Assembly: GCA_945861535.1 (NCBI GenBank)
Contig: CAMAUZ010000004.1
Coordinates: 1-64,000, forward strand
Origin: Akkermansia muciniphila
GTDB lineage: Bacteria > Verrucomicrobiota > Verrucomicrobiia > Limisphaerales > BJHT01
Reading direction: 5' to 3'
Length of the DNA stretch: 64,000 nt
The stretch's first letter is position 1; each line of letters begins with the position of its first letter. Under the pieces are notes generated by a model that was not told where the DNA came from, ran no database searches, and saw only the letters and a program-made list of their open reading frames with translations. Position numbers and translations under genes: made by a program. Positions 1,461 to 60,185 of this stretch are shown in pieces.

Positions 1461-1560
1461 TTGGCAGGGGAATTTGGGGCAAAGGAATGGGGGCAAAGGA
1501 ATGGAGGCGGGGGTTTTTAGCATCTTATTCCTTTGCCTCCATTTCTTGGCGAATTCTCCC
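1461..1560. repeat. Word-repeat palindrome F1, copy A
   Basis: ttggcaggggaatttggggcaaaggaatgggggcaaaggaatggaggc ... ttattcctttgcctccatttcttggcgaattctccc. Confidence 0.88.
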
Positions 1561-1728
1561 GGCCGGAGTGCGCCCGTCTCGGGCGCAGCGAGGTGGAGCG
1601 GAGGGAGTCGCGGAGAAGTTCCGGCGGTCTCGTGCGGACGAGCGTTGCTGCGGCCGGGGACGGCCGCACTCCGGGCGTGTTCGGCTGCGCCGTTGACAGT
1701 GCTGGGGGTGGCCGCAAGGTTCTTCGCC

Positions 1729-2961
1729 ATGGTCACCATTTCTCCGCAATCCCGCTCGCTCTTCGCGTTTTTCTTCACGGCACTGCTCGCGCTTCCTCCC
1801 GACGGGCGGGCACTGGATTGGCCCTGTTTCCGCGGCCCGGAGCACAACGGCATCTCACGCGAGACGGGGTGGGTCACGGCGTGGCCAGGGGGGAGTCCGG
1901 CGGTCGTGTGGAAGGCGGCGGTGGGCCTGGGTTTTTCGACGCTGGTCGTCGCCGAGGGGCGCGTGATCGCGACGGGACACAAGGCGGGACAAGACACGGT
2001 GTGGTGCTTCGAGGCGGGGAGCGGCAAGGTCGCGTGGAGCCACTCGTATGCCGCGCCGCTCGGTGACAAATTTTTCGAGGGCGGCATGACGGGCACGCCG
2101 ACGATTCATGGCGGCAAGGTTTTTCATCTCAGCCGGCAAGGGGACTTTTTCTGCTTCGAGTTAAGCTCGGGGAAAATTCTGTGGCAGAAGGATCTCGGGA
2201 AGGAACTGGGCGTGACGCTGCCGGACTGGGGCTTCGCGTCGTCCCCGCTGGCCGAGGGAAATCTGCTCATCCTCAATGTCGGCGGCGCAGGCACGGCGCT
2301 GGATCGCGAGACGGGCAAGGTCATCTGGACCTCAGACAAGGAGATGGCGGCCTATGCCACGGCGGTGCCGTTTAATCTGGGTGGCCCCGAGGGCGTGCGC
2401 TGCGTCGCAATTTTCACGCGGCGCGAGTGTGTCGCGGTCGAGGTGGCGGGCGGCAAGGTGCGCTGGCGGCAGAAGTTTGTTTCCAATTACGACACCAACG
2501 CCGGCGCGCCGGTGATTCACGACGGCACGCTGTTCCTCTCCGCTTACAACGTCCCGGGCGTGATGCTCAACGCGACCGATGGCACGCCGGTGAGCGGCTG
2601 GGCGACGACCACGCGCGTGCATTTCAACGCGGGCGTGGTGATCGGCGGGCACCTGTTTGCATTTCATGCGCAGGCGGGAAAACCGGATGGCGAACTGCGC
2701 TGCCTCGACTGGAAAACCGGCGCGACCAAGTGGGCGGCGAAGGGACTGGGCGTCGGCTCGCTGGTGGCGGCGGATGGGAAGTTGATCATCCTCAGTGAAA
2801 AAGGGGAGCTCGTGGTGGCGGAGGCGTCGGCGGCGGAGTTCAAGCCGCTCGCGCGCACGCAGGTGCTCGGGGGCAAGTGCTGGGCTACGCCGGTGCTCGC
2901 CAACGGGCGCATCTATTGCCGGAATGCGGCGGGGGATTTGGTGTGTGTGGAGGTGCGGTGA
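1729..2961 (+). CDS. Secreted PQQ-like beta-propeller repeat protein
   Basis: Signal peptide then WPCFRGPEHNGIS and repeated blades (GKVAWSHSY, GKILWQKDLGKELG, GKVIWTSDKE, GKVRWRQKF), as in verrucomicrobial/planctomycetal PQQ-like proteins. Confidence 0.85.
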   Translation: MVTISPQSRSLFAFFFTALLALPPDGRALDWPCFRGPEHNGISRETGWVTAWPGGSPAVVWKAAVGLGFSTLVVAEGRVIATGHKAGQDTVWCFEAGSGKVAWSHSYAAPLGDKFFEGGMTGTPTIHGGKVFHLSRQGDFFCFELSSGKILWQKDLGKELGVTLPDWGFASSPLAEGNLLILNVGGAGTALDRETGKVIWTSDKEMAAYATAVPFNLGGPEGVRCVAIFTRRECVAVEVAGGKVRWRQKFVSNYDTNAGAPVIHDGTLFLSAYNVPGVMLNATDGTPVSGWATTTRVHFNAGVVIGGHLFAFHAQAGKPDGELRCLDWKTGATKWAAKGLGVGSLVAADGKLIILSEKGELVVAEASAAEFKPLARTQVLGGKCWATPVLANGRIYCRNAAGDLVCVEVR

Positions 2962-3022
2962 GGGACGGTTGGACGTCGGGGTGGGATTTCGCGGGCTGAG
3001 TCAGGTGCCGGGCGGAGAACTT

Positions 3023-4924
3023 ATGATGCGAACGATTACCATGTTGGTTCTGTTGGTTTCGGCGATGCTCTGCGGCGGTGCCGTTGGCGGCGCGGAGTAT
3101 GCGACAATTTTCGCGAGGACTCCGGATCTCCGGCCTCCTTATTTTTCGACGTTGCCGGAGATGATCAAGCAACGGCGTGCTCAATTTCAGGCAATTTTGG
3201 AGCGTATTCACCTGGTGGATCAGGGAAAGGGCGCGGCGAGTTTTGGTGTGGCGTCTAATGGCCTGCAACTTGCGCTGATCGTGTTGGAGCCGGAACTAGC
3301 CAGCACCCAGAGGGTTCATGCGGCGATCGTGCTGCGAAATGATTCCAGCGAGAAGGTGGGCTACCAGGGAGACACCACCGATGTGCTCGAAATAATCGCG
3401 GTTGACGAAGCCAGCCAACCATTGCCCCGCACACCCAGCGGAAAGGCGTATGCAGGGCGTCGGGTGAATGTAGGCATTGGCAAGCCACCTACCATGGTCA
3501 TCCCTGCGCATGGGCAAGTGGTTTATGAGGTGAACTTGGCCGAACTTTTTGTGGTTCCCCGTGACAAGCGGGTCACGTTCGTTGCCGCGGCGCGATTCGT
3601 TGACGGACGGGGGAAAGGGTGGGCGGAGGTGCATTCGCAAAGTGGGTGGGTGTGGCCCAGAGGCGACGCGGGGGTGAAGAGCTTTTTCGATGAACCGGAG
3701 GCTCCCGAATGGGTGTTGGCGCGGATGCGGGCATATCAGGAGACCAGTGGGCCGGTGGCACGATCCAATGCGGTGGTGCGGATGGCGCAGGACACAGCAC
3801 GGCCCACGAATTTCGTTTTCTCCAGCAGCACCGGGAGCAGTGCGACGAATCCATTTCCGCAGACGAATCTGACAAATGCTTCACCGGTTGTGACCGGTAC
3901 TCCATCGGTTCCACCGTCGGCACGCCAGTCCCCAAAGGCAGATTTGCTTCAGCCGCCAGCGGTAGGAGTGACCGAGCCGATGCTGGCTCCGTTGTTGGGG
4001 GATGGGTCTGGTAGGGCGGCGACGAATGCGGTGCAGTGGCAGCAGCGCGCCGCATTGCGTCAGCGCTGGCAGGGTTTGCTCGGCGAGTTCCCGGCGGAGC
4101 GGGCGCGGCTGAAATCCGAGGTGCTCGCGACGGAGGAACTGCCCGATTTCACGCGGCAGCATGTGAAGTATCAGATTCAGGAGGGCGTGTTCACCGACGC
4201 CTATCTGCTCACACCGAAGCCCGCGCGGGAACGACGTCCGGCGGTGGTGGTGTTTCATCAGACGGTGAACAGCCATGCGCGGCAGGCGGCGGGGCTGGAT
4301 GTTTCCAATCCGGAGCTGAACCACGGCGTGCAACTGGTCCGGCGCGGGTATGTCGTGGTGTGTCCGCGCTGCTACATCTTCGACGACGGCACGAATTTCG
4401 CGGGCAATGTGAAGCTCGTGCAGCAGCGCAATCCCGCGTGGACCGGCATGGCGCGCATGACGTTCGATGGCGTGCGCGCGGTGGATTTTCTCGCGTCGCT
4501 GCCGTCGGTGGACACCGACCACATCGGCGCGCTCGGGCATTCGCTGGGCGCGAAGGAGGTGCTGTTCGCGGCGGCGTTCGACGAGCGCTACAAGGTAGCG
4601 GTGTTCAGCGAGGGCGGCATCGGGCTGAAGTTCACGAACTGGGACGCGCCGTGGTATCTCGGGCCGGCGGTGCGGCAGGCGGGCTTCGCGGGCGAACTCC
4701 ATGAATTGCTCGCGCTCATCGCGCCGCGCGGCTTTCTCCTGCTCGCCGGCGAGTCGGCGGACGGCGACCGAAGCTGGCGGTTCATCGAAGCAGCGCGGCC
4801 GGTGTATCGGCTGCTGGGTGCGGAGAAAAATCTCGGGTGGCTGAATCACCGGCAGGGGCATCGGTATCCGGCGGCGGCGCGGGAAGTGGCGGAGGAGTTT
4901 CTGGATCGGTTCCTCAAGCCGTGA
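3023..4924 (+). CDS. Secreted two-part protein: uncharacterised N-terminal region plus C-terminal alpha/beta hydrolase (dienelactone hydrolase/acetyl esterase-like)
   Basis: Signal peptide MMRTITMLVLLVSAMLCGGAVGGA; C-term RRPAVVVFHQTVNSHARQAAGL..., IGALGHSLGAKEVLFAAAFDERYKVAVFSEGG (GHSLG nucleophile elbow). Confidence 0.75.
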   Translation: MMRTITMLVLLVSAMLCGGAVGGAEYATIFARTPDLRPPYFSTLPEMIKQRRAQFQAILERIHLVDQGKGAASFGVASNGLQLALIVLEPELASTQRVHAAIVLRNDSSEKVGYQGDTTDVLEIIAVDEASQPLPRTPSGKAYAGRRVNVGIGKPPTMVIPAHGQVVYEVNLAELFVVPRDKRVTFVAAARFVDGRGKGWAEVHSQSGWVWPRGDAGVKSFFDEPEAPEWVLARMRAYQETSGPVARSNAVVRMAQDTARPTNFVFSSSTGSSATNPFPQTNLTNASPVVTGTPSVPPSARQSPKADLLQPPAVGVTEPMLAPLLGDGSGRAATNAVQWQQRAALRQRWQGLLGEFPAERARLKSEVLATEELPDFTRQHVKYQIQEGVFTDAYLLTPKPARERRPAVVVFHQTVNSHARQAAGLDVSNPELNHGVQLVRRGYVVVCPRCYIFDDGTNFAGNVKLVQQRNPAWTGMARMTFDGVRAVDFLASLPSVDTDHIGALGHSLGAKEVLFAAAFDERYKVAVFSEGGIGLKFTNWDAPWYLGPAVRQAGFAGELHELLALIAPRGFLLLAGESADGDRSWRFIEAARPVYRLLGAEKNLGWLNHRQGHRYPAAAREVAEEFLDRFLKP

Positions 4925-5108
4925 ATCCTTGTAGGAGCCGACGTGAGGAGGCTCTGACCTTTTCTGCGCGAGCAGCGGACAGAGTTTCGGAAGCTGACTT
5001 GGGAGAGGCGTGAGGGGCCGGAACTTGGTTGCAAGACGGGGCTTGGAGTGTCTTTGGGCGGGCCGCGCGTGGAAGGAGGTTAGAGTCTCGTTACCTCGAC
5101 TCCTACAA
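4923..5108. repeat. Full-length ~185-bp MITE-like element, TTGTAGGAG...CTCCTACAA termini
   Basis: ccttgtaggagccgacgtgaggaggctctgacc ... ggaggttagagtctcgttacctcgactcctacaaag; interior homologous to reverse complement of 22917-23102. Confidence 0.88.
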
Positions 5109-5133
5109 AGGCGGGCTGAGGCTCTCAGCCGTG

Positions 5134-6432
5134 CTACTTGACCAGTTCCCCCACCAGCAGAATTGCGCCGGGATAGAAGGCCCGGCCGTCGTAACGCTCG
5201 GGCTTGTCGATCTTGTTGTTGCGCGTGGCGAGGACCTTGGCCTTGTCCACCTGCTCGGGATGAATCTCGAGTTTCACGGTATGGATTTTGTCTTCGAGTT
5301 CGCTGCCGAGACCGATGGTGGCGAGGCGGTGGTAGGTGCTGAAGGAATCGAAACGCGGCACGACCTTGGCTGGCTTGTCGTCCACGGTGACGATGACCTG
5401 GCCGCAATCGGGGCCGATGATGTCGTAGATCGAGCAACGTGTGCCCTTGAATTTGAAGGTGATCGTCTCGCCGGGTTGGGCGCCCTTGTGCAGCGCGGTC
5501 ATGCGGTTGGCCCAGCGTTTGCCGAAGTCATCGGCCTGGGGATCGAGCAGCGCGAAACCTTTCGAGATCGTGGCGGCAGTGATGGGGAGCAGCTTCGCGT
5601 GCTCATAGTTTGAGGCGATGAACGGCGCGGGCAGCGGATGCGGGGCGGCGGTCTTGGCGGCGGCGCGCACGATCGGAAGCGAGCGCGCAATGGCTTCGAC
5701 GTAAAGCTGGTGACCGGTCTCGACGTGCGGATGCACGCCGTCGGGCGCGAAGACGAACTTGTCGCCGACCTGCGCTTTTTCTTCAGGCGTCTTGGGCAGC
5801 GGGGATTTCCAGAGGAGCTTTCCCTCCTTGGCCAGGCGTGCGACTTCCATGGTCAGGTGGATGGTCGGGATGCCGTAGTGCTCGGCGATCTTCTCCATGG
5901 CACTGGCGGCGCGATGAAATTTGCCCTCGAACAGCGGCTCCACGATGGCCTCGGTGATAGTGTAAACAAAGGCGATGTCGCAGTTCGGCAGCGTGCGCCA
6001 GGTCTGCCGCACGATGCCCTCCATGCAGCGGAAGATTTGCTCGGGCGTGGCCCAACTGTCGTTCACCGCGAACTCCACGAACATCAGATCGGGCTTCGCA
6101 TCGAGCACGTCCTGCTTGAGGCGAAAGACGCCGAGGTCCGAACCGGTGCCGCCAATGGCCGCGTTGATCTCGGAAATCTTCGCGGTGGGAAAAGTCTTCT
6201 GGAGGTGCGCGAGCGATTTGGGCCGCCAGCCAGGCTGCGCGGTGATCGAGCCGCCGAGGTAGGCGATTTTCACCTCCGCCCCGGAGGTGGTGGCTTTCGC
6301 GAAGAAATTTGGGAGACCGCCGCGCGGGCGGCATTCTTGCGCGGGGGCAAGGGACAACTCCTGAGCCGGCGAGCCGAGCGCGCCGGCGAGCAGAATTCCG
6401 AAGAGGCGAATGAGGGTGTGGTTGGTGTGCAT
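5134..6432 (-). CDS. Secreted SGNH/GDSL hydrolase family protein
   Basis: Signal peptide; VKIAYLGGSITAQPGWR (block I), GTGSDLGVFRL, FVEFAVNDSW (block III), APDGVHPHVETGHQLYVEAI (block V). Confidence 0.8.
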   Translation of the reverse strand: MHTNHTLIRLFGILLAGALGSPAQELSLAPAQECRPRGGLPNFFAKATTSGAEVKIAYLGGSITAQPGWRPKSLAHLQKTFPTAKISEINAAIGGTGSDLGVFRLKQDVLDAKPDLMFVEFAVNDSWATPEQIFRCMEGIVRQTWRTLPNCDIAFVYTITEAIVEPLFEGKFHRAASAMEKIAEHYGIPTIHLTMEVARLAKEGKLLWKSPLPKTPEEKAQVGDKFVFAPDGVHPHVETGHQLYVEAIARSLPIVRAAAKTAAPHPLPAPFIASNYEHAKLLPITAATISKGFALLDPQADDFGKRWANRMTALHKGAQPGETITFKFKGTRCSIYDIIGPDCGQVIVTVDDKPAKVVPRFDSFSTYHRLATIGLGSELEDKIHTVKLEIHPEQVDKAKVLATRNNKIDKPERYDGRAFYPGAILLVGELVK

Positions 6433-6536
6433 GGCAATCTGTCGGTTGAACTGGCCGCGCAGCGTGGCGGAGTTCAGGCGTGGTGTTGAGGAAAAACGGG
6501 TGCGCGGGCGAGAGGCGACGGGCAAGGTGTCGAGAT

Positions 6537-7226
6537 ATGGGCAATGGAAAATCACCGTTTGGTTTCACCGTGGGCGCAGCGCCGGGGGCTGGGTCGGACG
6601 CGAGCCAGGCACAGCGGGACGGCAGTCTCGCGCGGAGCGTGGGGATCGGGACGCTGGGTTTTGGCGCGGCGAGCCTGCTGGTGTTTGGGAGCTGGGCGTG
6701 GATGGGACGGTGGCTGTATGGGGCTTTGGGCGAAGCGGGGACATACGCGGTTTGGGCGGTGGTTTTCGTCGGCGTGGCGGGGGCGGGACTGCGGCGGTTG
6801 CTGATCTTCCCGGTTTCGCTGCCACGATTTCTCGGGTTCTTTTTGGTCGCGTTCGGGGCGTATGCGTTGGTGTGGTCGGTGAGTTGGTTTGCCCGGCCGA
6901 CGCGCCTGGGGGAGTGGCTGGCGTCGCTGCTGGGGACGATGAGTTTTTGCGCCGTCTTGTGCTGGGCTTTTGGCGCATGGCGGATGTTCGTGCAGGTCGC
7001 GCTGGCGGTGTTCGCGCTGCACTCGGCGGGATATTTTGCGGGCGGCTGGCTGCACGGCTGGGTGCTCGGCGGGACGTTGCCGGCGGAGTGGCTGGGCACG
7101 GCGGCCCGCGCGGATCTGAGCAAGCTGCTGTGGGGCGCGGCGTATGGCTGCGGTTTTGGTGCGGGGCTGGGCTATGCCTTTCACGCGTGCCAGCGCGCGG
7201 ACGTGGGGGCAAAGCTCAAAGGCTAA
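6537..7226 (+). CDS. Multi-pass membrane protein, hypothetical
   Basis: ORF with about six hydrophobic segments; no family recognised. Confidence 0.6.
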   Translation: MGNGKSPFGFTVGAAPGAGSDASQAQRDGSLARSVGIGTLGFGAASLLVFGSWAWMGRWLYGALGEAGTYAVWAVVFVGVAGAGLRRLLIFPVSLPRFLGFFLVAFGAYALVWSVSWFARPTRLGEWLASLLGTMSFCAVLCWAFGAWRMFVQVALAVFALHSAGYFAGGWLHGWVLGGTLPAEWLGTAARADLSKLLWGAAYGCGFGAGLGYAFHACQRADVGAKLKG

Positions 7227-7413
7227 AGCTCAAAGCTCAAAAAAATTCCAAGCACCAGGTTCCAAGGCCGCCATCATGGGCGCGAGGATTCTGTGGAGTC
7301 TTTCGGTTTCGCCTGCCACCCGCTCCAGACCGGCCGGTAGCCGACCTGATCTGGAGCTTGTCTCTTGGACCTTCCCATGAGCTTTATGCTTTGAGCTTTG
7401 AGCTTTTTTTCAC
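7210..7413. repeat. Palindromic element with tandem GCTCAAA/TTTGAGC words
   Basis: caaagctcaaaggctaaagctcaaagctcaaaaaaattccaag ... cttggaccttcccatgagctttatgctttgagctttgagctttttttc. Confidence 0.85.
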
Positions 7414-7431
7414 CCGGCCCGTGTCGTCGGC

Positions 7432-8247
7432 TCAGAGCTTCAGGTATTCCCACAACTCTGCGGGTGCGAGGCGGATGTTGGTGTAGAACTCGCCGAAATC
7501 GCCGTAGCGCGCGCTGACTTCATCGAAGCGCATTTCGTACACGATCTCCTTGAGGGCATCGAGCTGGTGCGCGACGAGCGTGACGCCCCATTCCCAGTCG
7601 TCGATGCCGACCGAGCCGGTGATGAGCTGGCTGACGCGGCCGCCATATTTGCGGCCGACGCGGGCGTGACCGCCCATGAGTTTTTTGCGGGTCGCGAGGT
7701 CGAGCAGATACCAGTTGTCCGCGCCGCTGCGGCGTTTGTTCATCGGATAGAAGGACATGATTTCCCAGTCGGGCAATTCGGGGTAGAGCCGGTAATGCGC
7801 GTATTCCTTGAGCTTGGCGCATTCGGCGGCGAGGCGCGTGGCGAACTCCGGGCTGTCGGGCGCGAGCTTTTCGGCGTGTTGCAGGCGCTGTTTCACGTCC
7901 TCTTCGCTCGACTGATATTCGGAGAGTTCGGTGACGCTGAGGTAGGAGTAAACCGGGAGCAACGTGCCGGGCGGAAAACACGTCTCGAGTTCACGCTGGA
8001 GCCGGCCGATCTCGACCAGGTCGGCGGCGAAGAGCATGAACGCGAAATCCGCTTTGCCGCCGATGTTCGCGTAGGTGGTGATGCGGGGATGGGAGGGATT
8101 GGAATTCGCGGCGACGAGGTCAGCCAGGCGCTGCCGGGCGTCGGCGGATTCACCATGTCCCAGTTCCGCCCAACTGACGCGGTCCACTTGGAAGAACAGG
8201 TGCATGACGTGAATTCCTTGATCCAGTTTGATGATGGGGAGGGGCAT
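7432..8247 (-). CDS. Chlorite dismutase family protein (HemQ-like coproheme decarboxylase); start could extend to 8319
   Basis: IHVMHLFFQVDRVSW...ADFAFMLFAADLVEIGRLQRELETC...SYLSVTELSEYQ...LYPELPDWEIMSFYPMNKRR...NWYLL...KLMGGHARVGRKYGGRVSQLITGSVGIDDWEWGVTLVA...FDEVSARYGDFGEFYTNIRL. Confidence 0.9.
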   Translation of the reverse strand: MPLPIIKLDQGIHVMHLFFQVDRVSWAELGHGESADARQRLADLVAANSNPSHPRITTYANIGGKADFAFMLFAADLVEIGRLQRELETCFPPGTLLPVYSYLSVTELSEYQSSEEDVKQRLQHAEKLAPDSPEFATRLAAECAKLKEYAHYRLYPELPDWEIMSFYPMNKRRSGADNWYLLDLATRKKLMGGHARVGRKYGGRVSQLITGSVGIDDWEWGVTLVAHQLDALKEIVYEMRFDEVSARYGDFGEFYTNIRLAPAELWEYLKL

Positions 8248-8260
8248 AGGGAGTGGGTTC

Positions 8261-8332
8261 GACAAGGAGGAGTTATGGGGCACGGAAGAGTTGTTGGACA
8301 CCGAGGGGTTATTCGACACGGAGAGCTTGTTC
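8261..8332. repeat. Four degenerate 18-bp tandem units at the hemQ-like 5' region
   Basis: gacaaggaggagttatgg / ggcacggaagagttgttg / gacaccgaggggttattc / gacacggagagcttgttc. Confidence 0.8.
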
Positions 8333-8683
8333 GAGCAGCACAGGCAACTGGGCGAGCATGGCGTCCTCGCTGGTCACCAACGTGGCACCGGCGGCGGAAG
8401 CGGCCTGCCGGAGGGGCTCGTTGTTTTTGCCGGCAAAGGCCAGCACTGGCACATGACCGGCCTCGGGACTGCGGCGGAGATCACGCAGCAGGGCGCAGGT
8501 GTCCACCGTGGCGGACTCGAGATCGAGGAGCACAACCAGCGGCAGAAGCGACTCGGCAACTTCGACGAGCCGCCTGGTTTCGAGGACGGTCTCGACACGA
8601 TAGCCCAAGTCGCGCAGCCGGTTGCCGACCTGGCTTCCGGGCAGCAACTTCTCGTAAAGGAGCAGGGCCACCGGTTGTTTCAT
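8309..8683 (-). CDS. Degenerate response-regulator receiver-like protein
   Basis: Receiver-like fold pattern: VALLLYEKLLPG...LPLVVLLDLESATVDTCALLRDLRRSPEAGHVPVLAFAGK...; N-terminal acidic pair and conserved Lys not evident. Confidence 0.6.
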   Translation of the reverse strand: MKQPVALLLYEKLLPGSQVGNRLRDLGYRVETVLETRRLVEVAESLLPLVVLLDLESATVDTCALLRDLRRSPEAGHVPVLAFAGKNNEPLRQAASAAGATLVTSEDAMLAQLPVLLEQALRVE

Positions 8684-8996
8684 TCGCCGTTCACGGTGGG
8701 GCGCGTTGTGGGAAAATGCAAAAAATTTCGCCGGAGTGCGCCGCCGGAGCGCGGGCGGATCACTCGCCAGCGCCGGTGGTCATATTCCATTCCCATGCCC
8801 CAAATTCCCCTGCCAAGTTTCCCCTGCTCACGAACGGTTACGCTCCATGCCGACAGCGCGCACAAGCTCATCTGTCACGAGCAATTCCCGCCGCTGTCGC
8901 CCATGCCACGCGTTGCGACCGGGACGTCCGCGCTCACAAAGCATGTGTGAAAACGATCCGGCTTGCTGCCCTCAGGTCGCTTTCTATAGTGAGCCA

Positions 8997-10298: not shown

Positions 10299-10368
10299 GA
10301 ACGCCACCCACCGCCGGTCACTCGTCACGCAGCACCCATCACGCAGCACGCGTCCCCCTTCCCCCCGC

Positions 10369-11835: not shown

Positions 11836-11894
11836 GGTCCGCTGCATCAACCGGGGGCAACTCCAATCGCGGAGCGCTGAACCGGGGAGAAACA

Positions 11895-12686: not shown

Positions 12687-12718
12687 CCTAGCCGCGCCTT
12701 TCGCGCCCGCGACGCGCC

Positions 12719-15379: not shown

Positions 15380-15392
15380 GGCGTATCTATTC

Positions 15393-22426: not shown

Positions 22427-22916
22427 TGCAGGGGGTGCCGGAGTGTGGCGGTCGGGGCGTGGATAGGATCGTAGGGGAGTCGCCGAGGTTGGCAGGGGAA
22501 TTTGGGGCAGGGTAATGGGGAGGGATTTGAGACGGGCCGAACTGGTTGTCCCGGGCGATGGAGAAATTTGGCGGCGGGCGAGAGTTTTGGCGCGCCGTTG
22601 GTTCATGTTGCGCGGTTGGGGCGTTCGGATTCTGCCAACGTCCCCCTCTCCGCCTCGATCCCCATTCCCGTGATCTGCGCGAATAACTGTAGTCATTAAA
22701 GCCCTGCCAACAGGGCGCTTGGCAAAACTTTGTCGTGGTCGAGGCGCGGGTTTCGCCCCGTTCCGCGGGAATCTCAAAAAGTCAGCGGCTGCAAACTTCC
22801 CCTGCTCCGCCTTCTGAGCACGATGCCCCCTGCTGCGGCCTTTTTTGGGCGTTCGGATTCTCCTCACGTCGGCGCTTTCAAATCCGACTCGCGGGCGAGC
22901 CGTCCGCGCCTCCGTC

Positions 22917-36933: not shown

Positions 36934-37048
36934 GGGGGAAAGTAATTAGTAATTAGTGAGCACAGGGGAGGAGATGGGGGGATTTTGGCAGGGGAATTTG
37001 GGGCGGGGGATGGGATTTCAGGAAGCGGCTTGAACTAGAAGAGAAGCG

Positions 37049-39511: not shown

Positions 39512-39634
39512 TGGCAAAGGAATGGGGGCAGGGGAATTGGGGGCAGGGGAATTTGGCAGACGAATGGGGAGTGGAATTTTTCCCGTGGGGCTAACTGTTT
39601 GTCTCTATTCGTCTGCCCCCATTCGTCTGCCAAA
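39512..39634. repeat. Word-repeat palindrome F1, copy E
   Basis: ggcaaaggaatgggggcaggggaattgggggcaggggaatttggcagacgaatgggg ... attcgtctgcccccattcgtctgccaaa; perfect 18-nt complement tttggcagacgaatgggg/ccccattcgtctgccaaa. Confidence 0.93.
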
Positions 39635-41032: not shown

Positions 41033-41284
41033 GCGGGGGGGCGGTCACGGGAGCGGGAGTTTTGGCAGACGAATGGGGGCAGGCGAATGGGGATGAGATT
41101 GGTCAGTTCCCATGCGGTTCGCGGTGGTCCGGCTCGTTTTTGAAGCTGCCGAATCTGCGATTTCGGACGCGCATCGCGGACCGGAACCGCTGCAGTTTTC
41201 CCGCAGATTCAGGGCGACCACAGATGGGAAATTCTTTTCTGTGGAGGCATTTGCAAAACCTCGGCTTCACAGTTCCGGCTTTCC

Positions 41285-41370
41285 ATCTTTTACCCCTGAT
41301 CTTTTACCAGATGCTTGGGCCTTGGACGAGGGGACGGGATACAGATGGTAAAAGAGGGTGGGTAAAAGAT
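41285..41370. repeat. Palindrome with doubled TCTTTTACC words
   Basis: atcttttacccctgatcttttaccagat ... cagatggtaaaagagggtgggtaaaagat. Confidence 0.85.
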
Positions 41371-41525
41371 AAACAAGCTGGGGTTTTGCAAGTGGCTCTG
41401 TGGGCGCCTTGAATCGGCGGGAGGCGCGCCTTTTTCTTTTCCAATCAGTGCGGGACGTGCGGCGATTTTCGGCGGTTTGGAATTTGCCTTAACACGGACG
41501 GCGGGTTGCTCCTAGCATCGCGGCA

Positions 41526-48915: not shown

Positions 48916-49534
48916 TTTCTCGGCGGTCGCTATATGGGAAAGCGTTTGGCACTGCAACATTTCCGAGCGACGGCGGCGTTTTTCGGGTTCGGGATGGCGG
49001 AACCGCCGTCCTTCGCACACGGGCACGGTGTTTTCAAACGGAATTTTCAAACCGGATTTCCACCGGGTGCAGCGTGATTGGCTGGGCGCGCGATCGCAGT
49101 CGCGGACGGTGCGCGGACGGCCCGCCCGCGAGGGCGGCCGGAGGCGGCGGGCGCTTTCAGATCGCACCGCGCCACGCGCCCCGGCGGTCGCGAACCGCGC
49201 GCTCGCCCGACTGCGGGATGCGCCGGAAAGGATGGGGCATTCGCGCACTGCCCAAGTCGTGCAGGTTTCCAAACCCGCGTATCGCCGATTTCCAAATCGG
49301 CAGGAGCCGCCGCGTTCAGGGCGCGGGGCGAAAATGTAGCCGCCGCGGTGACGAGGCGGAGGCCGCTCCCGCGACAAGCCCGGGAAATCCGCCTCCTCAC
49401 TTTGGCGGCTACCGCGCACGCGCACGCTTTCCGTGCTTGGCTCCCCTTCGCATTGCGCCACGATGCGCCGCGAGAAAACCGAATCGCACCATGCCCCCCA
49501 CCTTCACCGCCACCCATCCCACTTTTCCCAGCCC

Positions 49535-52500: not shown

Positions 52501-52594
52501 CGGCCTGCTCCAGGCCCTGCCGCCGGAGCAGGTGGCCAACCTGATCGCCTACCTGATGTTCAAAGCGCAGGTGCCGCTGCCGGGTGGGAAGTGA
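49535..52594 (+). CDS. PVC-type membrane-bound dehydrogenase with HEAT-like region and C-terminal heme-binding CxxCH domain
   Basis: LPPGFKATLFAAEPNVQNPIALAWDSRGRLWIAENYTYAD; FNLACAACHTLYGEGGKNGPDLTGAGRDNMDYLLENLLDPSAVVAPDYRVSQV. Confidence 0.95.
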   Translation: MKFPRPLLALLLAALPALAALAATPFPQPTNNEPGNPSPLSPAEALAAIKLPPGFKATLFAAEPNVQNPIALAWDSRGRLWIAENYTYADNKKRFDLSFRDRMLIFEDTKGDGHFSSRKVFTDDIQMLTSIAIGHGGVWAMCPPNLVFIPDANGADAPSGPKQIVLDGFDPMHAMYHNFANGLKWGPDGWLYGRCGGSCPGEIGVPGTPAEQRVPLRGGLWRFHPQRKTFETIAHGATNPWGHDWNADGEPFFVNTVNGHLWHAFAGARFVGRSPGSTSPYTYELIDMHADHWHFDTGKKWTDSRGGKADAYGGGHAHIGTMIYRGDNWPAAYRDKLFTLNQHGRRINCERLERAESGYVARHEADTVIFGDPWFRGLDLDYGPDGGVFVLDWSDTGECHDFTGVHRTSGRIFKITYGDPKPAAFTDLAKQSNAELIALHTHANEWFTRQARRELARRAATQALPAADLAALRSLFLRSPGINVKLRALFTLHTLGATDDAFLRTLLRHADDLVRAQAVKLLTDAWPLDRANALAPEPATAERCAPLLPELLRLAKEDSSATVRLALASTLQRLNVSQRPALASAIVAHAEDSKDHNLPLLVWFGLIQVAQADPTALAAVASACEWPVTRRLIARRLATDLEKNPAPLNALLTAVADRPAALQADIFTGISEATAGLRQATKPAAWDAFAEKISRSDNTLLKAKLANLGALFGDARALAEARRSATDPKADVNARKLTLQTLIDQKAENLRPICEAALTTRALNAVAVRGLARENDPALGAKIVAALPTFIENERGSAFAALASRPAWALALLDAVARGEVERSAISASTLRDLRNHNHAGLNQRLAEVMKAIREATEDKRKLIASFKTRLTPETLAKADKAQGRAMFNLACAACHTLYGEGGKNGPDLTGAGRDNMDYLLENLLDPSAVVAPDYRVSQVFLKDARNLTGIIAARTERTLTLKTVAETIDLDQRDITTIKDSALSLMPDGLLQALPPEQVANLIAYLMFKAQVPLPGGK

Positions 52595-52639
52595 GGCGGG
52601 GAACCTGAATCCGGAGACTCGCGGGAACAGGGAATTAAA

Positions 52640-52746
52640 ACCACTAACCGGCACTAACCTGCACTAATGGGAACAAGGAAAACCGCACTCGCGAAGGTGA
52701 ATCGGGTTGGGTTTCTGATTAGTGCCAGTTAGTGCCGGTTAGTGGT
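52640..52746. repeat. Palindrome with arms of tandem CACTAACCKG words
   Basis: accactaaccggcactaacctgcactaat ... attagtgccagttagtgccggttagtggt (2 mismatches over 29 nt). Confidence 0.92.
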
Positions 52747-52760
52747 GAGAACTGGATGCC

Positions 52761-54029
52761 TCACGCCTCGAACCGCAGGTAGAGGCACTTCAGGTACGAC
52801 GCTTCCTTGAAGGTCGCGGGGTGATCCGGCGCGTGGCGTTCGCTTGCGATCTCCGTGAACCGCCGCCCCGAACCCTCCGCCGCCGCGCGCACTGCGCCGA
52901 AGAATTCGTCCGTCGTTACGTGCGCCGAGCACGATCCGGCCACGAGAATTCCACCGCTCCGGAGCCGCGCGATGCCGAGCCGGTTCAGCCGCTCATAGGC
53001 CTGAATCGCGCGGCCCCGCTCCGTCTCGCGCTTCGCCAGCGACGGCGGATCGAGGATGACGAGATCAAACTGCCGCTCCTGCTTTTCGAGCCAGAAAAAC
53101 GCGTCCGCCTGCACCGTCTCGTGCGCGCACTCCCGCACCGCCGCGTCGTCCTGGTTCAACGCAAAGTTCCGCCGCGCTCCTGCCAAGGCGTAGTCGCTGA
53201 TGTCCACATCCGTGACCTTGCGCGCGCCACCACGGGCTGCGTGAACCGAGAATCCGCCCGTGAAACTGAACGCGTTCAACACCTCGCGCCCCGCCGCCAG
53301 CGCCTCGACTCGTGCGCGGTTCTCGCGTTGATCCAGAAAAAATCCCGTCTTCTGTCCGCGCCGCACGTCCGCCTCGAACCGCAGCCCATGCTCGCGAAAG
53401 ATCACCACGTCCGGCGGCTCCGTCAGCCCGAGCGACTGTCCCTCCACCACCTGAAACGCCCCGGCGGCCACCTGAATGTTACGACTCAGGCGCAGGATCA
53501 GATGCTCGTGCGGCAAGTGCTCGCGCAGCAGCGAAACGATCTCGTCCAGCCGCGGCAGCCAAGCCGCCGTGTAAAGCTTCAGCACCAGCGTCGTGGCATA
53601 GCGATCCACGACCAGCCCCGGCCAGCCCTCGCTCTCGCCATTGATGCACCGGTATCCGTCCGTGCGCGCATCGAACATCCCCGCCCGCCGCGTGATCGTC
53701 TCCTGCAACCGCGCCGCCCACCACGCGCGGTCAATCGTCGTCGGCTTGCCCACGTAAATAATCCGCACGCGCAACGGCGAATCAGGATCGAACAATCCGA
53801 TCGCGAGAAATTTGTCCTGCCGGTCGTAAATCACCGCCAACTCGCCCATCTCCCCTGCTCTGTTCTGCTCCAGCACACTGTCCGAGAAAACCCACGGATG
53901 GCGCGAACGAATCGCCGACTCCGAGGCCTTGGTCACGCGCAACCGCAACCGCGCCGCCGCCGGCGACGCCCCCGTTGGCGGCGTCTTCGCCGCCGTCGTT
54001 CCATTGTTCACATTCGGTATTTCAGACAC
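52761..54029 (-). CDS. Class I SAM-dependent rRNA methyltransferase (RlmI-like)
   Basis: [15 protein letters not shown]...[54 protein letters not shown]...[29 protein letters not shown]. Confidence 0.93.
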
Positions 54030-54110
54030 GCGGCGAGGTTATCCCCTGCCCCACCACAAGTCACGCGGGCAGACCCGCGGCCAACCAGCGGGCCAGATCC
54101 GCACACCGTC

Positions 54111-54236
54111 CCGGAGCGCGGCTGTGTCGCAGACCAGCCGCAGCAACTGCAATCGACTGACGTGCTCGAAGGGAATCGACGCCGTCGGGTTTTTCAGCGT
54201 GCTGCGGCTGGTGCTCCGCACACAGCCGCGCTCCGG
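54111..54236. repeat. Palindromic element, GGAGCGCGGCTGTGTCGCAGACCAGCCGCAGCA family (copy 1)
   Basis: Left ccggagcgcggctgtgtcgcagaccagccgcagca, right gtgctgcggctggtgctccgcacacagccgcgctccgg. Confidence 0.88.
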
Positions 54237-54240
54237 CCCT

Positions 54241-54348
54241 GGTACCGCAGGCGTCCCCGCCTGCGAGTTCGGGCGGCGTCTCGCCGCCGGGCCCGATTGC
54301 TGGGGCGAGGACGCCCCGTAACTCGCAGCCGGGGACGGCTGCGGTACC
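54241..54348. repeat. Clover-like element with four GGCGTC/GACGCC-type hairpins bounded by GGTACCGCAG...CTGCGGTACC
   Basis: gcaggcgtccccgcctgc, gggcggcgtctcgccgcc, ggggcgaggacgcccc, gcagccggggacggctgc inside outer GGTACC palindrome. Confidence 0.85.
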
Positions 54349-54463
54349 GAGTTGGGGACACCGCGCCGAGGCTCTCAACCAACCGCGCGTCCGCGCCCAG
54401 CAAAACCTCCGGCTTTCCCCGTCGCCCGCGGTCGGTATGCTCACGCGCAGTGCGGGTGAAACC

Positions 54464-54874
54464 ATGACAGCTCTCTTTCGTTATCTGGCCACGTTGACCA
54501 CCGGGCGGATCGTTCTGTGGTGCTACGCCATCTGGTATGTGGTGAACGTGGCCCATCATTTCGATGCGCGCCCGCGGCTCTGGCTGACCTCGCTGGGGTT
54601 GAGCGCGATCATCGGCGCGGCGCTGCTGCTGAGCACGCAGGCGAGTTCGCGCGGCACGACGCGACTGGATCGTTGGCAAATCTTCCGGCTGTTTCTGATG
54701 CCGTTCTGTGTCTCGAGCTTCGCCGCGCTGGTGAAGGACGCGGGGTTTGTCCTCATTTTTCCACCGAGCTGGCGGGAGAATGGGGTGGGGCTGATTGCAA
54801 TGGGCGCGTTCGTTTTCGCCGTGCTCGGGCTGAAGCAGACACGATTTGCGAGATTGGAAGACAAGCCCAATTGA
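54464..54874 (+). CDS. Hypothetical membrane protein
   Basis: ~136 aa with several TM segments (IVLWCYAIWYVVNV, LGLSAIIGAALLLST). Confidence 0.6.
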   Translation: MTALFRYLATLTTGRIVLWCYAIWYVVNVAHHFDARPRLWLTSLGLSAIIGAALLLSTQASSRGTTRLDRWQIFRLFLMPFCVSSFAALVKDAGFVLIFPPSWRENGVGLIAMGAFVFAVLGLKQTRFARLEDKPN

Positions 54875-54905
54875 AGGGGGTTCCGCTATGAGTGGATCCG
54901 ACGCG

Positions 54906-54992
54906 GGTGGGTAGGGCGCGTCTGTCCTCAGCGCGCCGCCGAACGTGCGGACACCCCACGGCGCGCTGGGGACAGACGCGCCCTACCCACCG
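54906..54992. repeat. Palindrome GGGTAGGGCGCGTCTGTCCTCAGCGCGCCG...CGGCGCGCTGGGGACAGACGCGCCCTACCC
   Basis: Near-perfect complementary arms read directly. Confidence 0.9.
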
Positions 54993-55043
54993 CGGTTCTT
55001 TCCTCTCACAACAGCGCAGAACACCGAACAGATTCACTCCCGG

Positions 55044-56459
55044 CTAAAACGGCTCCGCCGTCTCCGTAGGCGCTTGCAGTTGCAGCAGCTTCAGTGCGCC
55101 CAGTGTGATCTTTACCGGTCCGAAGAGCGGACTCTTGCCCACGAGCTGCCCCTGCTCGACGCGCTCAATCGCCACGGTCACGCGGCCGCGTGTGACGAAG
55201 AAGGCCTGCGGCGTGTGGGCCGCCGCCGCGCCCGCCGGGCGCGCCGTCTCGGCCAGGCGCACCTGCGCGACGCGCAGCAACGGAATGGCCAGCGGCCCCA
55301 GCGGCGACTCGACGGTCAGCTTGCCGTCGGCGAATTTTTGCAGGCGTCCCGCCACGGTGTCGTTGTTCATCAGCAGCACAAAATCGCTCTTCGGATCGGG
55401 GGCTTTGTTCGTCGTGGCGTCCATCCGGCCGTCCCATTCGGCAACGGTGAGGTTGCTCAGTTTCATGATGCTCGCGGTCTGGTTCACGAAGCGCAGGATC
55501 GTCCCGGTGCCCGCGAATTCCGTCGGCTCCTTCCATTGCTTCACGAGCGCGCCGTCGATCAGGAGGTTGATTGTCTGGTCGGGTTTGTTCACGCGGATGG
55601 CGACGTGCATCGAGTTCTTCGTGTTGGCCAGCGGCATGAACGCCGCGCCCAGCGACGTGATGGGACGCTGCTTGCTCACGACGAGGATGTTCACCGAATT
55701 GTTGTTCAACTGGAGGCTGTAGAAGCCGCCGAAGTCCGGCGCGTTTTCCTTTTGCGCGAGGTTGATGGGAAACAGCGAGTCCGCATACAGCGCGATGGCC
55801 AGATTGAAAAAGCCCTTCCACGCCACATCGAACTGAATGTCCACCAGGTTCGGCAGCTTGAAGTCCCGCGCGATCGACGCCGACTGCGTCGCGAGAAACG
55901 CCCCCTGATGATAGACCCAGCCGCTCGGCTCCGCGTCGGGGATCGGCGGCTTGCCCTGCGTCCAGCCCTCCAGCCCCGTCGGCCCCTCGAACAGCAGCCC
56001 CGGCCGCGGGCTTTGCGGCACGATGCTCTCAATGCTGCTGCGCGGGATGCCCAACTCGCCGGCGTACCACGTCTGCAAAATGATCTTGTCATCAAGAACC
56101 GCGACCAAGCTCCCTTCCAGCTCGTCCTGATTGATCAAGCGCACGAGCACGGGGAACGCCGGTTTGGTCGTGTTGCCCGCGCGTTCGCCGAGACGCACCT
56201 TCATCACGCTTGCGGTCCGTGCGGTCATTTCCTTGGCCGCGTCGGGATGCCGCCACAGCAGTCCTTTCTCGGGATCAAAGGTAATCAGTTCGCCACGCAA
56301 CCGGTCCCCATTGGCAAAGTAAATCCCGTCATTCACCGGCCCCGCCGCCACCGCGCCGCCCAGCGGCGGCAGCCACGCCAGCAACGCGGCGACGAGCAAG
56401 GCCGCGGCGTAGAATCCCCGTCGCGCGCCGGGTTTGCTGCGATTGAAAATTTGTTTCAT
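55044..56459 (-). CDS. Secreted hypothetical protein (conserved-looking, LamG/DUF1080-like middle)
   Basis: Signal peptide; NDGIYFANGDRLRGELITFDPEKGLLWRHP...; lacks a clear family signature. Confidence 0.65.
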   Translation of the reverse strand: MKQIFNRSKPGARRGFYAAALLVAALLAWLPPLGGAVAAGPVNDGIYFANGDRLRGELITFDPEKGLLWRHPDAAKEMTARTASVMKVRLGERAGNTTKPAFPVLVRLINQDELEGSLVAVLDDKIILQTWYAGELGIPRSSIESIVPQSPRPGLLFEGPTGLEGWTQGKPPIPDAEPSGWVYHQGAFLATQSASIARDFKLPNLVDIQFDVAWKGFFNLAIALYADSLFPINLAQKENAPDFGGFYSLQLNNNSVNILVVSKQRPITSLGAAFMPLANTKNSMHVAIRVNKPDQTINLLIDGALVKQWKEPTEFAGTGTILRFVNQTASIMKLSNLTVAEWDGRMDATTNKAPDPKSDFVLLMNNDTVAGRLQKFADGKLTVESPLGPLAIPLLRVAQVRLAETARPAGAAAAHTPQAFFVTRGRVTVAIERVEQGQLVGKSPLFGPVKITLGALKLLQLQAPTETAEPF

Positions 56460-56523
56460 CGGACCGCGGGACGCTAGAAGCGGGACGCGGCAAAGGAAAG
56501 GAACTAAACCGGAACAGTGCAGT

Positions 56524-56658
56524 CGGAGCGCGGCTGTGTCCCGCGCGGCGCGGGATCAGCCGCAGCAGCGTCATCGGGAGTGACGGCCAAGGTAATTTCA
56601 AAGCCCGCGTGAAGTGGGTCCGTGCTGCGGCTGGTCGCTGCGACACAGCCGCGCTCCT
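56524..56658. repeat. Palindromic element, GGAGCGCGGCTGTGT family (copy 2)
   Basis: cggagcgcggctgtgtccc...atcagccgcagcag ... gtgctgcggctggtcgctgcgacacagccgcgctcct. Confidence 0.88.
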
Positions 56659-56688
56659 CCCGCGTTTCACCCGCGCTCCACGGCGCGC

Positions 56689-57720
56689 TCAAAAGAGGAG
56701 CAGTTCGACGTGCTGGGTGCCGTGGCTGGTGAGTTCCCAGCGGGCGCCGCGTTTGGTGACGAGTTTACGGCAGGGGTGTTTTTTCTGCTCGGTCTCGTTG
56801 ACGGAAAGGAGCTGGATGCGGGCGGTGTTGCCGATTTCGGAGGCGGCGCGCGGGATGATGCGGCAGGGGATGCCGGTGTAATTGAGCGACAGTTCGTAGC
56901 CGACCACGCCTTCGCGTTCGGCAGTGGGATTGCGGGTCACGAGCGGGGCGTAGCGTTTGACCCACGGGACGTCGGCTTTGCGGACGAAGAGGCGGCAGAG
57001 TTCGGGTTGTTGCTGGATGAATTTGACGAGACTGAAGTTTTTCCCGGCGACGCGCTGTTCGCGGAGGATGGCGGCGGGGTCGAGGCCGAGGAGGTTGAGG
57101 CCGCTGTATTCGCCGTGGTCGTTGCGCTGGGTGGGAAGGAATTTCTTGTACCAGCCGGAGAAGTGGTCGTTGACGAAGAGGTTGAGCTCGAAGTGGAGGT
57201 GGGCGCGTTCCCTGGAGATTTGTTCGCGGGTGTTGGCGGTGCGGCCCATGAGGGCGACGACGTCGCCAGCCTTGACGGGCGTGCCGTATTGGAGGCCGGG
57301 GCGGATTTCCTTGAGGTGCGCGTAGAGGGAGAAAATCTCCAGGCCCTCGACGCGGTGCATGATGACGAGGTAGTTGCCGTAGTTGGAGAGGTTCGCGCGC
57401 TTGTTGGTGTAGGCGACGATGCCATCGGCGGTGGCGAGGATGGCGTCAGTGGGTTCCTGTTTTTTGTCGCGGCTGACGCAGCGGATGTCGAGGCCCTCGT
57501 GGAGTTGCCAGCCGTCCGAACGCACGCAGCCGAAGGTGCCGCTGGCCCAAGGTTTGCCGGTGGTGCCGACATAAAAACGCTCCTCGCCACCGGGTTCGAA
57601 AAGCGCGCGGTTGGCGGTGGGAAGGCGGAAGAGTTGCGCAGGGGCGGCGGTGCCGGCGACGCACGCGCAAACGCACAGGAGCGCGGCGGCGAGAGTGCCG
57701 AGGGGACGAAAGAAAGGCAT
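56689..57720 (-). CDS. M23 family metallopeptidase (secreted)
   Basis: WQLHEGLDIRCVSRDK...ILATADGIVAYTNKRANLSNYGNYLVIMHRVEGLEIFSLYAHLKEI...GRTANTREQISRERAHLHFEL. Confidence 0.9.
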   Translation of the reverse strand: MPFFRPLGTLAAALLCVCACVAGTAAPAQLFRLPTANRALFEPGGEERFYVGTTGKPWASGTFGCVRSDGWQLHEGLDIRCVSRDKKQEPTDAILATADGIVAYTNKRANLSNYGNYLVIMHRVEGLEIFSLYAHLKEIRPGLQYGTPVKAGDVVALMGRTANTREQISRERAHLHFELNLFVNDHFSGWYKKFLPTQRNDHGEYSGLNLLGLDPAAILREQRVAGKNFSLVKFIQQQPELCRLFVRKADVPWVKRYAPLVTRNPTAEREGVVGYELSLNYTGIPCRIIPRAASEIGNTARIQLLSVNETEQKKHPCRKLVTKRGARWELTSHGTQHVELLLF

Positions 57721-57756
57721 GACGCGCGGGGGGACGACGGGGCGGCGGGGCGGCGG

Positions 57757-58275
57757 TCAGTACTGCTCGCCGCGTTTTTGCATGGCGGTGGCGAGGAGGT
57801 TGAGCCCCTTGACGAAGCGCTCGGCGTCCTCGCGGGTGCCGTCCATGCGGAAGATCAGTTCGCCGCCGGCGGTGTGCTGGCGGAGAAGCGGCGCGCCGAT
57901 CCAGCGGCCCGCGGGATATTCGCTGTAGATCGCAAGGTGGCGGCCGCGATGGGAGAGGCTGGTGGTTTCGAGAACCAGAGCGCCATGGGTGGTGAACTTG
58001 AGCTGGATGCCGAACTTGCCGTCACCTTCCAGCAGCTTGGCTTCAGTGACGGAGGTTTCATCGAGGATCGGCTCTTTTCCGACGATGAGTTTGAGGGGGG
58101 GATCGAGGAAAACGACGATCGCCTGGGTGCGATCGGCGGCGTCGGGGCGGGCCTCGACAAAGATGCGCAGCGTGCTGGCATCCGCGGCTTTGGGGAGGCT
58201 GTTGGTCTTGCAGCCGACGGCGAGCAGCGTGAAGAAAAGCAGAATGATGTTGAACGGCCCCGGACGAAACTTCAT
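57757..58275 (-). CDS. Lipoprotein with SecD P1-head-like domain
   Basis: Lipobox LLAVGC; LRIFVEARPD...ILDETSVTEAKLLEGDGKFGIQLKFTTHGALVLETTSLSHRGRHLAIYSEYPAGRWIGAPLL. Confidence 0.65.
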   Translation of the reverse strand: MKFRPGPFNIILLFFTLLAVGCKTNSLPKAADASTLRIFVEARPDAADRTQAIVVFLDPPLKLIVGKEPILDETSVTEAKLLEGDGKFGIQLKFTTHGALVLETTSLSHRGRHLAIYSEYPAGRWIGAPLLRQHTAGGELIFRMDGTREDAERFVKGLNLLATAMQKRGEQY

Positions 58276-58320
58276 AGTGCCGCCAAGAAAGTTGAACGAG
58301 CAAACAAAGTAAAGTGTGAT

Positions 58321-58494
58321 ATGGGAAAACAGCTAAATAAGGTCATCAAAAAACGTCGTCGCGTCAGTTATTTGAAGCGCAAAAAAGAGGCGGCGGTGGC
58401 GGCGGCTGCCACAGCGGCCACGGCCAAGAAGGCGGCCACCGCTGCGGCCCCGGTCAAGAAGGTCAGCAAGGCGGCGGCAGCGGCAGCGGCGTGA
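58321..58494 (+). CDS. 57-aa Lys/Arg/Ala-rich basic protein (histone H1/nucleoid-like tail)
   Basis: MGKQLNKVIKKRRRVSYLKRKKEAAVAAAATAATAKKAATAAAPVKKVSKAAAAAAA*, followed by a strong intrinsic terminator. Confidence 0.75.
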   Translation: MGKQLNKVIKKRRRVSYLKRKKEAAVAAAATAATAKKAATAAAPVKKVSKAAAAAAA

Positions 58495-58515
58495 GGTGAC
58501 GGTCGGTTATTTCGA

Positions 58516-58543
58516 GGCCACCCGGGTTGGGTGGCCTTTTTTT
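58516..58543 (+). terminator. Rho-independent terminator
   Basis: GGCCACCC-gggtt-GGGTGGCC-TTTTTTT, 22 bp after the 57-aa ORF stop. Confidence 0.93.
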
Positions 58544-58624
58544 GTCGGTGGCGGGGCAGGCCGGGCGTGCGGGGCAGCAGCAACCCAAGCGAAGCGCGAC
58601 CGGTCTCCGGTCGCAGCGGCATCA

Positions 58625-58710
58625 TCGGAGCCGAGGCGTTGGCAATTTCTTGCGCCGTCGCGGGCGCGAAGCCGCTGCGGTTGGTCCGCGGCGGACACAG
58701 CCGCGCTCCG
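58625..58710. repeat. Degenerate/rearranged copy of the GGAGCGCGGCTGTGT family (copy 3)
   Basis: gccgctgcggttggtccgcggcggacacagccgcgctccg right end intact. Confidence 0.65.
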
Positions 58711-58828
58711 TGCGAGGCGGGCCGCTCGGAGTTCGCGACGGCATAAACACCGCCAAGTTTCGGCGGCGGGAGCGACGGTGTGAGTCACGGTGGCGGAGTG
58801 CGGTCGGGCAATTCTGTTTACAAAAATT

Positions 58829-60040
58829 ATGGAACAACTAGCGACGGTTTTGGTGCGTCCAGGGGAGGCGGATCGGTTGATCGCGGGACATCCGTGGCTC
58901 TACAAAGGCTCGATCTTGCGGATCACCGCGGCGGTGGCAGACGGGGCCGTGGTGCAGGTGAAGGATCATCGGCAGCGGTTTCTCGGGGTGGGCTTCTACA
59001 ATTCCAAATCCAAGATCGCGGTGCGGATGCTCGCGCCGGACCGGGTCGAGGTGAACGAGAAGTTTTTCGCCGAACGCATCCGCGCGGCGCTGGCGCTGCG
59101 GACGCGCTACATGCCGGGGGCGACGTCGTTTCGTGTGGTGAATTCGGAGGGGGATTTGCTCAGCGGTTTGATCGTGGACAAATACGAGGACGTGCTGGTG
59201 TTGCAGACCTCGTCGCTCGGGATGGATCAGCGGAAGGGGATGATCCTCGCGGTGCTGCAGGAACTGTTCGCGCCGCGGGCGATTCTGGAACGGAACGATA
59301 TGGCGTCGCGGCGTTTCGAGGGGCTGCCCGAGGCGCAGGGGACGATCGTGGGCGAAGCGCCGGGACCGGTCGGGGTGAAGCTAAACGGCCTGGAATTCAA
59401 GCTCGACCTCGCGACGGGGCACAAGACGGGCCTGTATCTGGATCAGCAGGAGAACTACCGGCGCGTGGCCGAACTGGTGAAGACGACCAACGCGAAGCAG
59501 GTGCTGGATTGCTTCAGTTTCCTCGGCGGGTTTGCGCTGCACGCGGCGCAGGCCGGGGCCGAGCGGGTGCTGGGGTTGGACCAGAGCGCGGACGCGGTCG
59601 CCGCCGCGACGCAGAACGCCGCGGCCAACGGCTTGGCCGAGCGCTGCACGTTTGAGGCGGCGAATGTGTTCGACTGGCTGAAGGCGCAGACGGTCCCCGC
59701 GCCACACGAGAAGGTCGTGCCGCGCTTTGATTTCATCGTGCTCGATCCGCCGTCGTTCACGCGCAACCGCGACTCGGTGCCGGACGCGCTGCGCGGGTAC
59801 AAGGAAATTCATCTGCGGGCGCTGAAGCTGCTGCGCCCCGGCGGCACGCTGGCGACGTTCTGCTGCTCGCATCATGTGGATGCGAACCTGTTTCTCGACT
59901 CAATCTTGGCGGCGGCCTACGACTGCCATCGCGTGCTGCGGCGCGTGGCGGTATTCCATCAAGCGCCGGATCATCCGGTGCTCCCGTCGGTGGCGGAGAC
60001 AGAGTATCTCAAGGGATTTGCCTTCGAGATCGCGCGGTAA
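58829..60040 (+). CDS. Class I SAM-dependent rRNA methyltransferase (RlmI-like), second paralogue
   Basis: ADRLIAGHPWLYKGSI; GHKTGLYLDQQENYRRVAELVKTTNAKQVLDCFSFLGGFALHAAQAGAERVLGLDQS; FIVLDPPSFTRNRDSVPDALRGYKEIHLRALKLL. Confidence 0.95.
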   Translation: MEQLATVLVRPGEADRLIAGHPWLYKGSILRITAAVADGAVVQVKDHRQRFLGVGFYNSKSKIAVRMLAPDRVEVNEKFFAERIRAALALRTRYMPGATSFRVVNSEGDLLSGLIVDKYEDVLVLQTSSLGMDQRKGMILAVLQELFAPRAILERNDMASRRFEGLPEAQGTIVGEAPGPVGVKLNGLEFKLDLATGHKTGLYLDQQENYRRVAELVKTTNAKQVLDCFSFLGGFALHAAQAGAERVLGLDQSADAVAAATQNAAANGLAERCTFEAANVFDWLKAQTVPAPHEKVVPRFDFIVLDPPSFTRNRDSVPDALRGYKEIHLRALKLLRPGGTLATFCCSHHVDANLFLDSILAAAYDCHRVLRRVAVFHQAPDHPVLPSVAETEYLKGFAFEIAR

Positions 60041-60084
60041 CGCAGCGGCCGCAGTGAACGGGGCGCAGGCAGCGGGAACTGAAT

Positions 60085-60185
60085 TTGGCAGGGGAATTTG
60101 GGGCAAAGGAATGGGGACGAAGAAGTGGATGCACTGGATGACGGTTCCCTTGTCCCCATTCCTTTGCCCTAAATTCCCTTGCCAA
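60085..60185. repeat. Word-repeat palindrome F1, copy G
   Basis: ttggcaggggaatttggggcaaaggaatggggacgaag ... cttgtccccattcctttgccctaaattcccttgccaa (2 mismatches, 1 indel). Confidence 0.95.

Follow-up and report, generated by a model that had tools for sequence, protein, structure and literature searches.

Dispersed palindromes built from short tandem words, which we call F1, lie between the genes of the 64,000-nucleotide stretch of DNA analyzed here (the window), and they raise the question of what kind of element they are and with which gene, if any, they belong. The original prediction had placed them at seven intergenic sites, all of which proved to be present; three of the seven are complete palindromes and the other four consist of one arm, as that prediction had implied. 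The window copies, with the evidence for each, are as follows.

1461-1551, + strand: F1 palindrome with three left and two right words, the outer right word decayed (sequence, single-stranded DNA fold)
8786-8815, - strand: solo arm of F1 sub-family II (GGCAGGGGAATTtggGGCATGGGAATG) (sequence)
22489-22522, + strand: solo arm of F1 sub-family II (sequence)
36986-37015, + strand: solo arm of F1 sub-family II, second word degenerate (sequence)
39513-39631, + strand: F1 palindrome with four left words, a loop and two right words, the stem being of the GACGAAT type (sequence, single-stranded DNA fold)
41064-41091, + strand: F1 solo arm (GGCAGACGAATGggGGCAGGCGAATG) (sequence)
60087-60195, + strand: F1 palindrome whose stem is full-length, with an additional right word (sequence, single-stranded DNA fold)

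Architecture and distribution of F1

Allowing up to two mismatches, the F1 word GGCARRSGAATKKG occurs 39 times in the window against 13.9 ± 3.4 expected (100 shuffles, the largest giving 22), and the whole host genome contains 297 exact matches and none to the pattern read backwards. A complete unit has the form W-2nt-W-loop-W'-2nt-W', where W is GGCARRSGAATG, and typically measures 62 to 75 bp; the arms of the dispersed palindromes surround a loop of 8 to 40 nt, and complete copies are strong hairpins as single-stranded DNA (z from -5.5 to -10.8). Words of the GACAGAATCATT type are unrelated to those of F1.

The predicted word length of about 14 nt describes one of two sub-families that we defined from a 1.24 Mb sample of the host genome. 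This 14-nt-period group uses AAAGG, AGACG or AAGGG words, is mostly palindromic and has a loop mostly of 21 to 23 nt; to it we add a second group with a 15-nt period (GGCAGGGGAATTtggGGCARGGGAATG) that consists mostly of solo arms. Within each sub-family the flanking sequence is also shared, over as much as about 100 bp; the F1 flanks are rich in TTT/AAA and lack GTAG. F1 elements often form mosaics with GTAG-tagged REPs. One inverted pair of such REPs (GTAGCCGCC...GAGGCGGA), a separate family common in the host genome, lies at 49336-49412 of the window.

As originally stated, no transposase lies beside any F1 copy in the window, and we found no described family with this architecture. The claim that no coding sequence is disrupted fits the sites in the window, provided that some ORF starts are taken to be over-long. 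In another genome, one F1-type palindrome (L155, 1679-1740) lies inside a predicted gene, in its predicted signal-peptide region; the ortholog of that gene in genome G125 carries a decayed copy.

In an automated tally, the tandem F1 pattern was present in 8 of 146 relatives besides the host genome, with 248 matches in the congener against 141 in the host genome and a few in each of the other carriers. Among the matches listed for named genome contigs, the pattern occurred in other Verrucomicrobiota, in Planctomycetota and on a scattering of contigs that bear other names; neither viral contigs nor plasmids contained it.

The gene between the palindromes

Three loci in three genomes contain two F1 palindromes about 0.9 kb apart, and the ORFs that they enclose all belong to one family, GxxExxY/PDDEXK_3.

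L151, 6508-7308: ORF enclosed by F1 palindromes
L042, 1500-2330: ORF enclosed by F1 palindromes
L191, 10178-11002: ORF enclosed by F1 palindromes

The enclosed proteins match TIGR04256 at 43 to 60 bits (cut-off 35; E from 5e-11 to 3e-16) and PF13366 (PDDEXK_3) at 50 to 62 bits (cut-off 22; E from 5e-13 to 7e-17). The partner of F1 is, as predicted from its sequence, a GxxExxY nuclease of the PD-(D/E)XK type and not a RAYT. When one enclosed ORF was used to query eight genomes, it returned eight long homologs, located in the host genome, the congener and G004, and all eight had inverted tandem words near both ends, each gene with its own word (GACAGRAGAATG, GGCAGAAAAATG and GGTAAAAGATG among others). 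Different arrays, for example AGCCACGGATTGAACACGGAAG and its inverse, stand on the two sides of short GxxExxY genes.

The window itself contains three further word elements of this kind, two of them dispersed copies carrying the word of a host-genome gene and the third with its gene in the congener.

41202-41225, + strand: array of CGCAGATTCAGGGCGACCACAGAT words, a dispersed copy of the array bracketing the congener GxxExxY gene G001:C295
41284-41371, no strand assigned: palindrome whose GGTAAAAGATG words are of the type found on both sides of the host-genome GxxExxY gene G000:C2
52636-52745, no strand assigned: palindrome of GCAGGTTAGTGC-type / AACCACTAACCGGCACTAACCTGCACTAATG words, the type bracketing the short host-genome GxxExxY gene G000:C38 (contig 38)

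At 41061-41371, an F1 arm, a CGCAGATTCAGGGCG array and the GGTAAAAGATG palindrome are neighbors within a single intergenic region.

For each gene, we took 250 bp on either side and scored the best inverted repeat that these two flanks form with each other. With controls drawn from one genome (1500 host-genome ORFs) and test genes from many, median scores were 21 for long and 23 for short GxxExxY genes versus 9 for controls, and 35 of 43 GxxExxY genes (22 of 28 long, 13 of 15 short) exceeded the control 99th percentile of 14.0 (Fisher 1e-51). A later set exceeded it in 10 of 10 cases. Genes with two domains, whose ends had been mis-set in the first comparison, scored 26 to 45 in three of four cases with 700-bp flanks (control 99th percentile, 20). 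The association between gene and palindrome is well supported, and we hold it with high confidence. Eight plasmid-borne GxxExxY genes from other phyla, found with a query protein that is approximate in its tail, served as leads. Clear inverted word arrays flank those of Bacteroides finegoldii (22.5) and Bernardetia (18), the Treponema gene scored lower (11), the Gemmatirosa gene has a one-sided palindrome, and the remaining leads showed nothing clear on both flanks. Because these leads are mixed, the link may not hold for every GxxExxY gene.

Word type also follows the protein. Among homologs sought in 27 F1-bearing genomes, the F1 word stood on both sides of 7 of the 10 distinct genes whose products are at least 44% identical to P0003, the F1 partner (three of the seven being the discovery cases), and of none of the 15 that are at most 43% identical; the three other close homologs have related, non-F1 words. 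Here L292 and L343, which are one gene, count once; an earlier figure of 8 of 11 (p 1e-4) was slightly inflated because they had been counted twice. Protein sequences were extracted by tblastn. Over 34 genes, with words read by eye from the flanks, word identity correlated with protein identity (Mantel r 0.376; 0 of 20000 permutations). Among 387 other Verrucomicrobiota genomes, G360 alone contained the tandem F1 pattern, and it alone held a homolog at least 44% identical.

The protein has the residues expected, from sequence, of an active PD-(D/E)XK domain: E41, D80, K91 and Q103 are invariant in 41 long homologs, and E89 is present in at least 90% of them. In a structure model (pLDDT 95.7), the second half repeats the helix and strand order of the first, and several relatives have two recognizable GxxExxY domains. 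The best fold match in the PDB was the Cas4 nuclease SSO0001 (E 9e-4), of modest significance and with a low overall TM-score. Searching by sequence returned no solved structure, and PADLOC made no defence assignment, reporting just a weak Cas4 match for P0001.

Homolog searches detected no long F1-cognate gene in the host genome, and the window's F1 copies therefore look orphaned. The same searches detected no long cognate gene in the F1-bearing relatives G018, G027, G104, G125 and G133, and no close homolog in most of the 27 F1-bearing genomes. Incomplete drafts, together with palindromes that break assemblies, may account for the missing cognates, and gene loss is also possible.

Several other arrangements were seen. 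In one planctomycete MAG, the F1 words form tandemly repeated units, each about 290 bp long and built as W'W'-spacer-WW (L105 198-1010 and L143 6340-6855), and that genome also has an F1-cognate GxxExxY gene (L346). At L300, the left flank of a GxxExxY gene holds a long array of TATGACAGAATCAT-type words. In Sphingomonas parapaucimobilis (L374, 1471-1899), a GxxExxY gene lies between fabD and fabG with a one-sided word array upstream.

Mobility and alternative readings

We consider it likely that F1 palindromes belong, as non-autonomous members, to a family of mobile repeats with the GxxExxY nuclease as its cognate; by analogy with RAYT-REPIN, mobilization by that nuclease is the best explanation of the data and probably the right one. 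The autonomous form would be a two-domain GxxExxY gene flanked by such arms or by a palindrome on each side, about 0.9 kb in all, and the dispersed palindromes would carry those arms without the gene. The nuclease would bind its own word pair, which it would probably recognize in hairpin or cruciform form. Cleavage there would allow excision or copying to new intergenic sites, with gene-less copies presumably mobilized in trans.

Comparison of related genomes is consistent with this reading. One intergenic site in G333 is filled by a 940-bp palindrome-gene-palindrome unit. In the sister species G336 this site is only a short gap with no such unit, and in G345 it holds a different palindrome type; further copies of the G333 palindromes occur in G333 and G345, and none in G336. 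This pattern supports gain and loss of whole units, whatever the reaction behind it. Moreover, the word types of the host-genome GxxExxY genes are dispersed through 1.24 Mb of that genome, with most reversed-sequence controls at or near 0.

Across 77 palindromes, target-site duplication did not rise above shuffles, and a search for a nucleotide-exact empty site of a small palindrome found none. Three candidates for such sites were set aside. Insertions between the host genome and the congener were mosaics with GTAG REPs that could not be resolved to the base. For a coding-region site in genus g27, one ortholog (G125) keeps a decayed copy and the others diverge. Upstream of argG in genus g128, the element is absent from G345, and the borders could not be aligned.

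The same link between gene and word would arise if the palindromes were immobile and the GxxExxY protein bound them as operators or protective sites in a regulatory or immunity-type role, and many F1 copies do lie in 5' or 3' intergenic regions. We regard this as unlikely, given the large differences in copy number, the presence or absence of a whole unit between sister species, and the sub-family flanks that are copied along with the arms. Alternatively, GxxExxY genes could be passengers that landed in, or recombined with, pre-existing palindromes, as might be suggested by the other palindrome type that a sister species has at one such site and by the mosaic of repeat families in the genome. 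Passengers would bring unrelated words, but word type follows protein clade, and the passenger reading is therefore disfavored and, in our view, very unlikely.

The original prediction had taken the agreement between the arms of each copy as a sign that pairing is maintained, and here our results differed. In 84 palindromes (18 from the host genome, 37 from the congener and 29 from other genomes), words that pair were no more alike at the variable purine positions than words that do not. RR identity in the other genomes was 0.31/0.34 for paired words versus 0.59/0.52 for words within an arm, and the base on the left was independent of that on the right (A/A 57, A/G 25, G/A 22, G/G 12). In almost all copies the four words were uniform at the G/C position, whether or not they pair with each other. 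A column-wise covariation count did exceed shuffles, the largest contribution, 10 of 22 double changes, coming from this G/C position. Because pairing brought no advantage at purines and the G/C position is uniform in non-pairing words as well, the agreement within a copy is best attributed to word type rather than to compensatory pairing; the comparison of paired with unpaired words speaks against arm pairing as its cause. Strong hairpins and intergenic positions would suit a structured RNA element or transcription terminator with base pairing under selection, but we find this highly improbable, since there is no compensatory pattern beyond word type, many copies are solo arms in which a hairpin is impossible, and an Rfam check of the window gave 0 matches.

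Mobilization as REP/REPIN elements by a RAYT (Y1 HUH) transposase or TIRYT merits scarcely any credence: RAYT-type Y1 genes (nine in the host genome) and abundant GTAG REPs are present and the logic of inverted hairpin pairs is that of REPINs, but F1 has no GTAG or CGTC tag, and none of the 39 Y1 genes examined has tandem F1 words at its ends, these genes bearing their own REP or TIR flanks instead.

Relation to known systems

Extending the favored reading, mobilization by the GxxExxY nuclease, beyond F1, we lean toward the view that GxxExxY proteins are the mobilizing nucleases of a very large class of tandem-word palindromes, including CACGGATGAACACGGAT and CCACAGAGGACGCAGAGGACAC arrays, in several phyla, which would make them a counterpart of RAYT-REPIN with an unrelated enzyme. 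If so, a widespread protein family of unknown function would gain a role, a class of intergenic repeats in Verrucomicrobiota and Planctomycetota would be explained, and a PD-(D/E)XK enzyme would be added to the short list of enzymes that are known to disperse miniature repeats in bacteria. The words, each specific to a gene, and the gene-specific proteins that match them would also form a natural data set for how these nucleases read DNA. In the full-text literature searched, which left preprints and most subscription journals outside, no paper assigned GxxExxY/TIGR04256 a role or tied palindromes to it. That the nuclease gene is bracketed in related bacteria by the hairpins themselves points to a mobile-DNA system that the searchable literature has not described.

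The analogy with RAYT-REPIN is functional only, F1 not being a member of the RAYT systems. As with REP/REPIN elements and their RAYT (TnpA-REP), F1 consists of dispersed short intergenic palindromes, with a partner gene bracketed by its own repeat, orphan repeats, a gene-specific repeat sequence and, as far as detected for F1, no target-site duplication. Unlike them, its partner is a predicted PD-(D/E)XK nuclease in place of a Y1 HUH transposase, and its arms are a tandem pair of 11- to 14-nt words with no GTAG tag. In the TIRYT/TIR families (Di Nocera et al. 2013, PMC3733652), too, long inverted repeats stand on either side of a gene and recur elsewhere as dispersed copies, but that gene encodes a tyrosine transposase, and the portion of that text searched contains no such tandem-word arms. 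Classical MITEs of DDE insertion sequences are likewise short and non-coding, and their inverted ends relate them to a form that carries a gene; F1 differs from them in that neither target-site duplication nor a DDE transposase was found at its ends, and in carrying tandem words within those ends.
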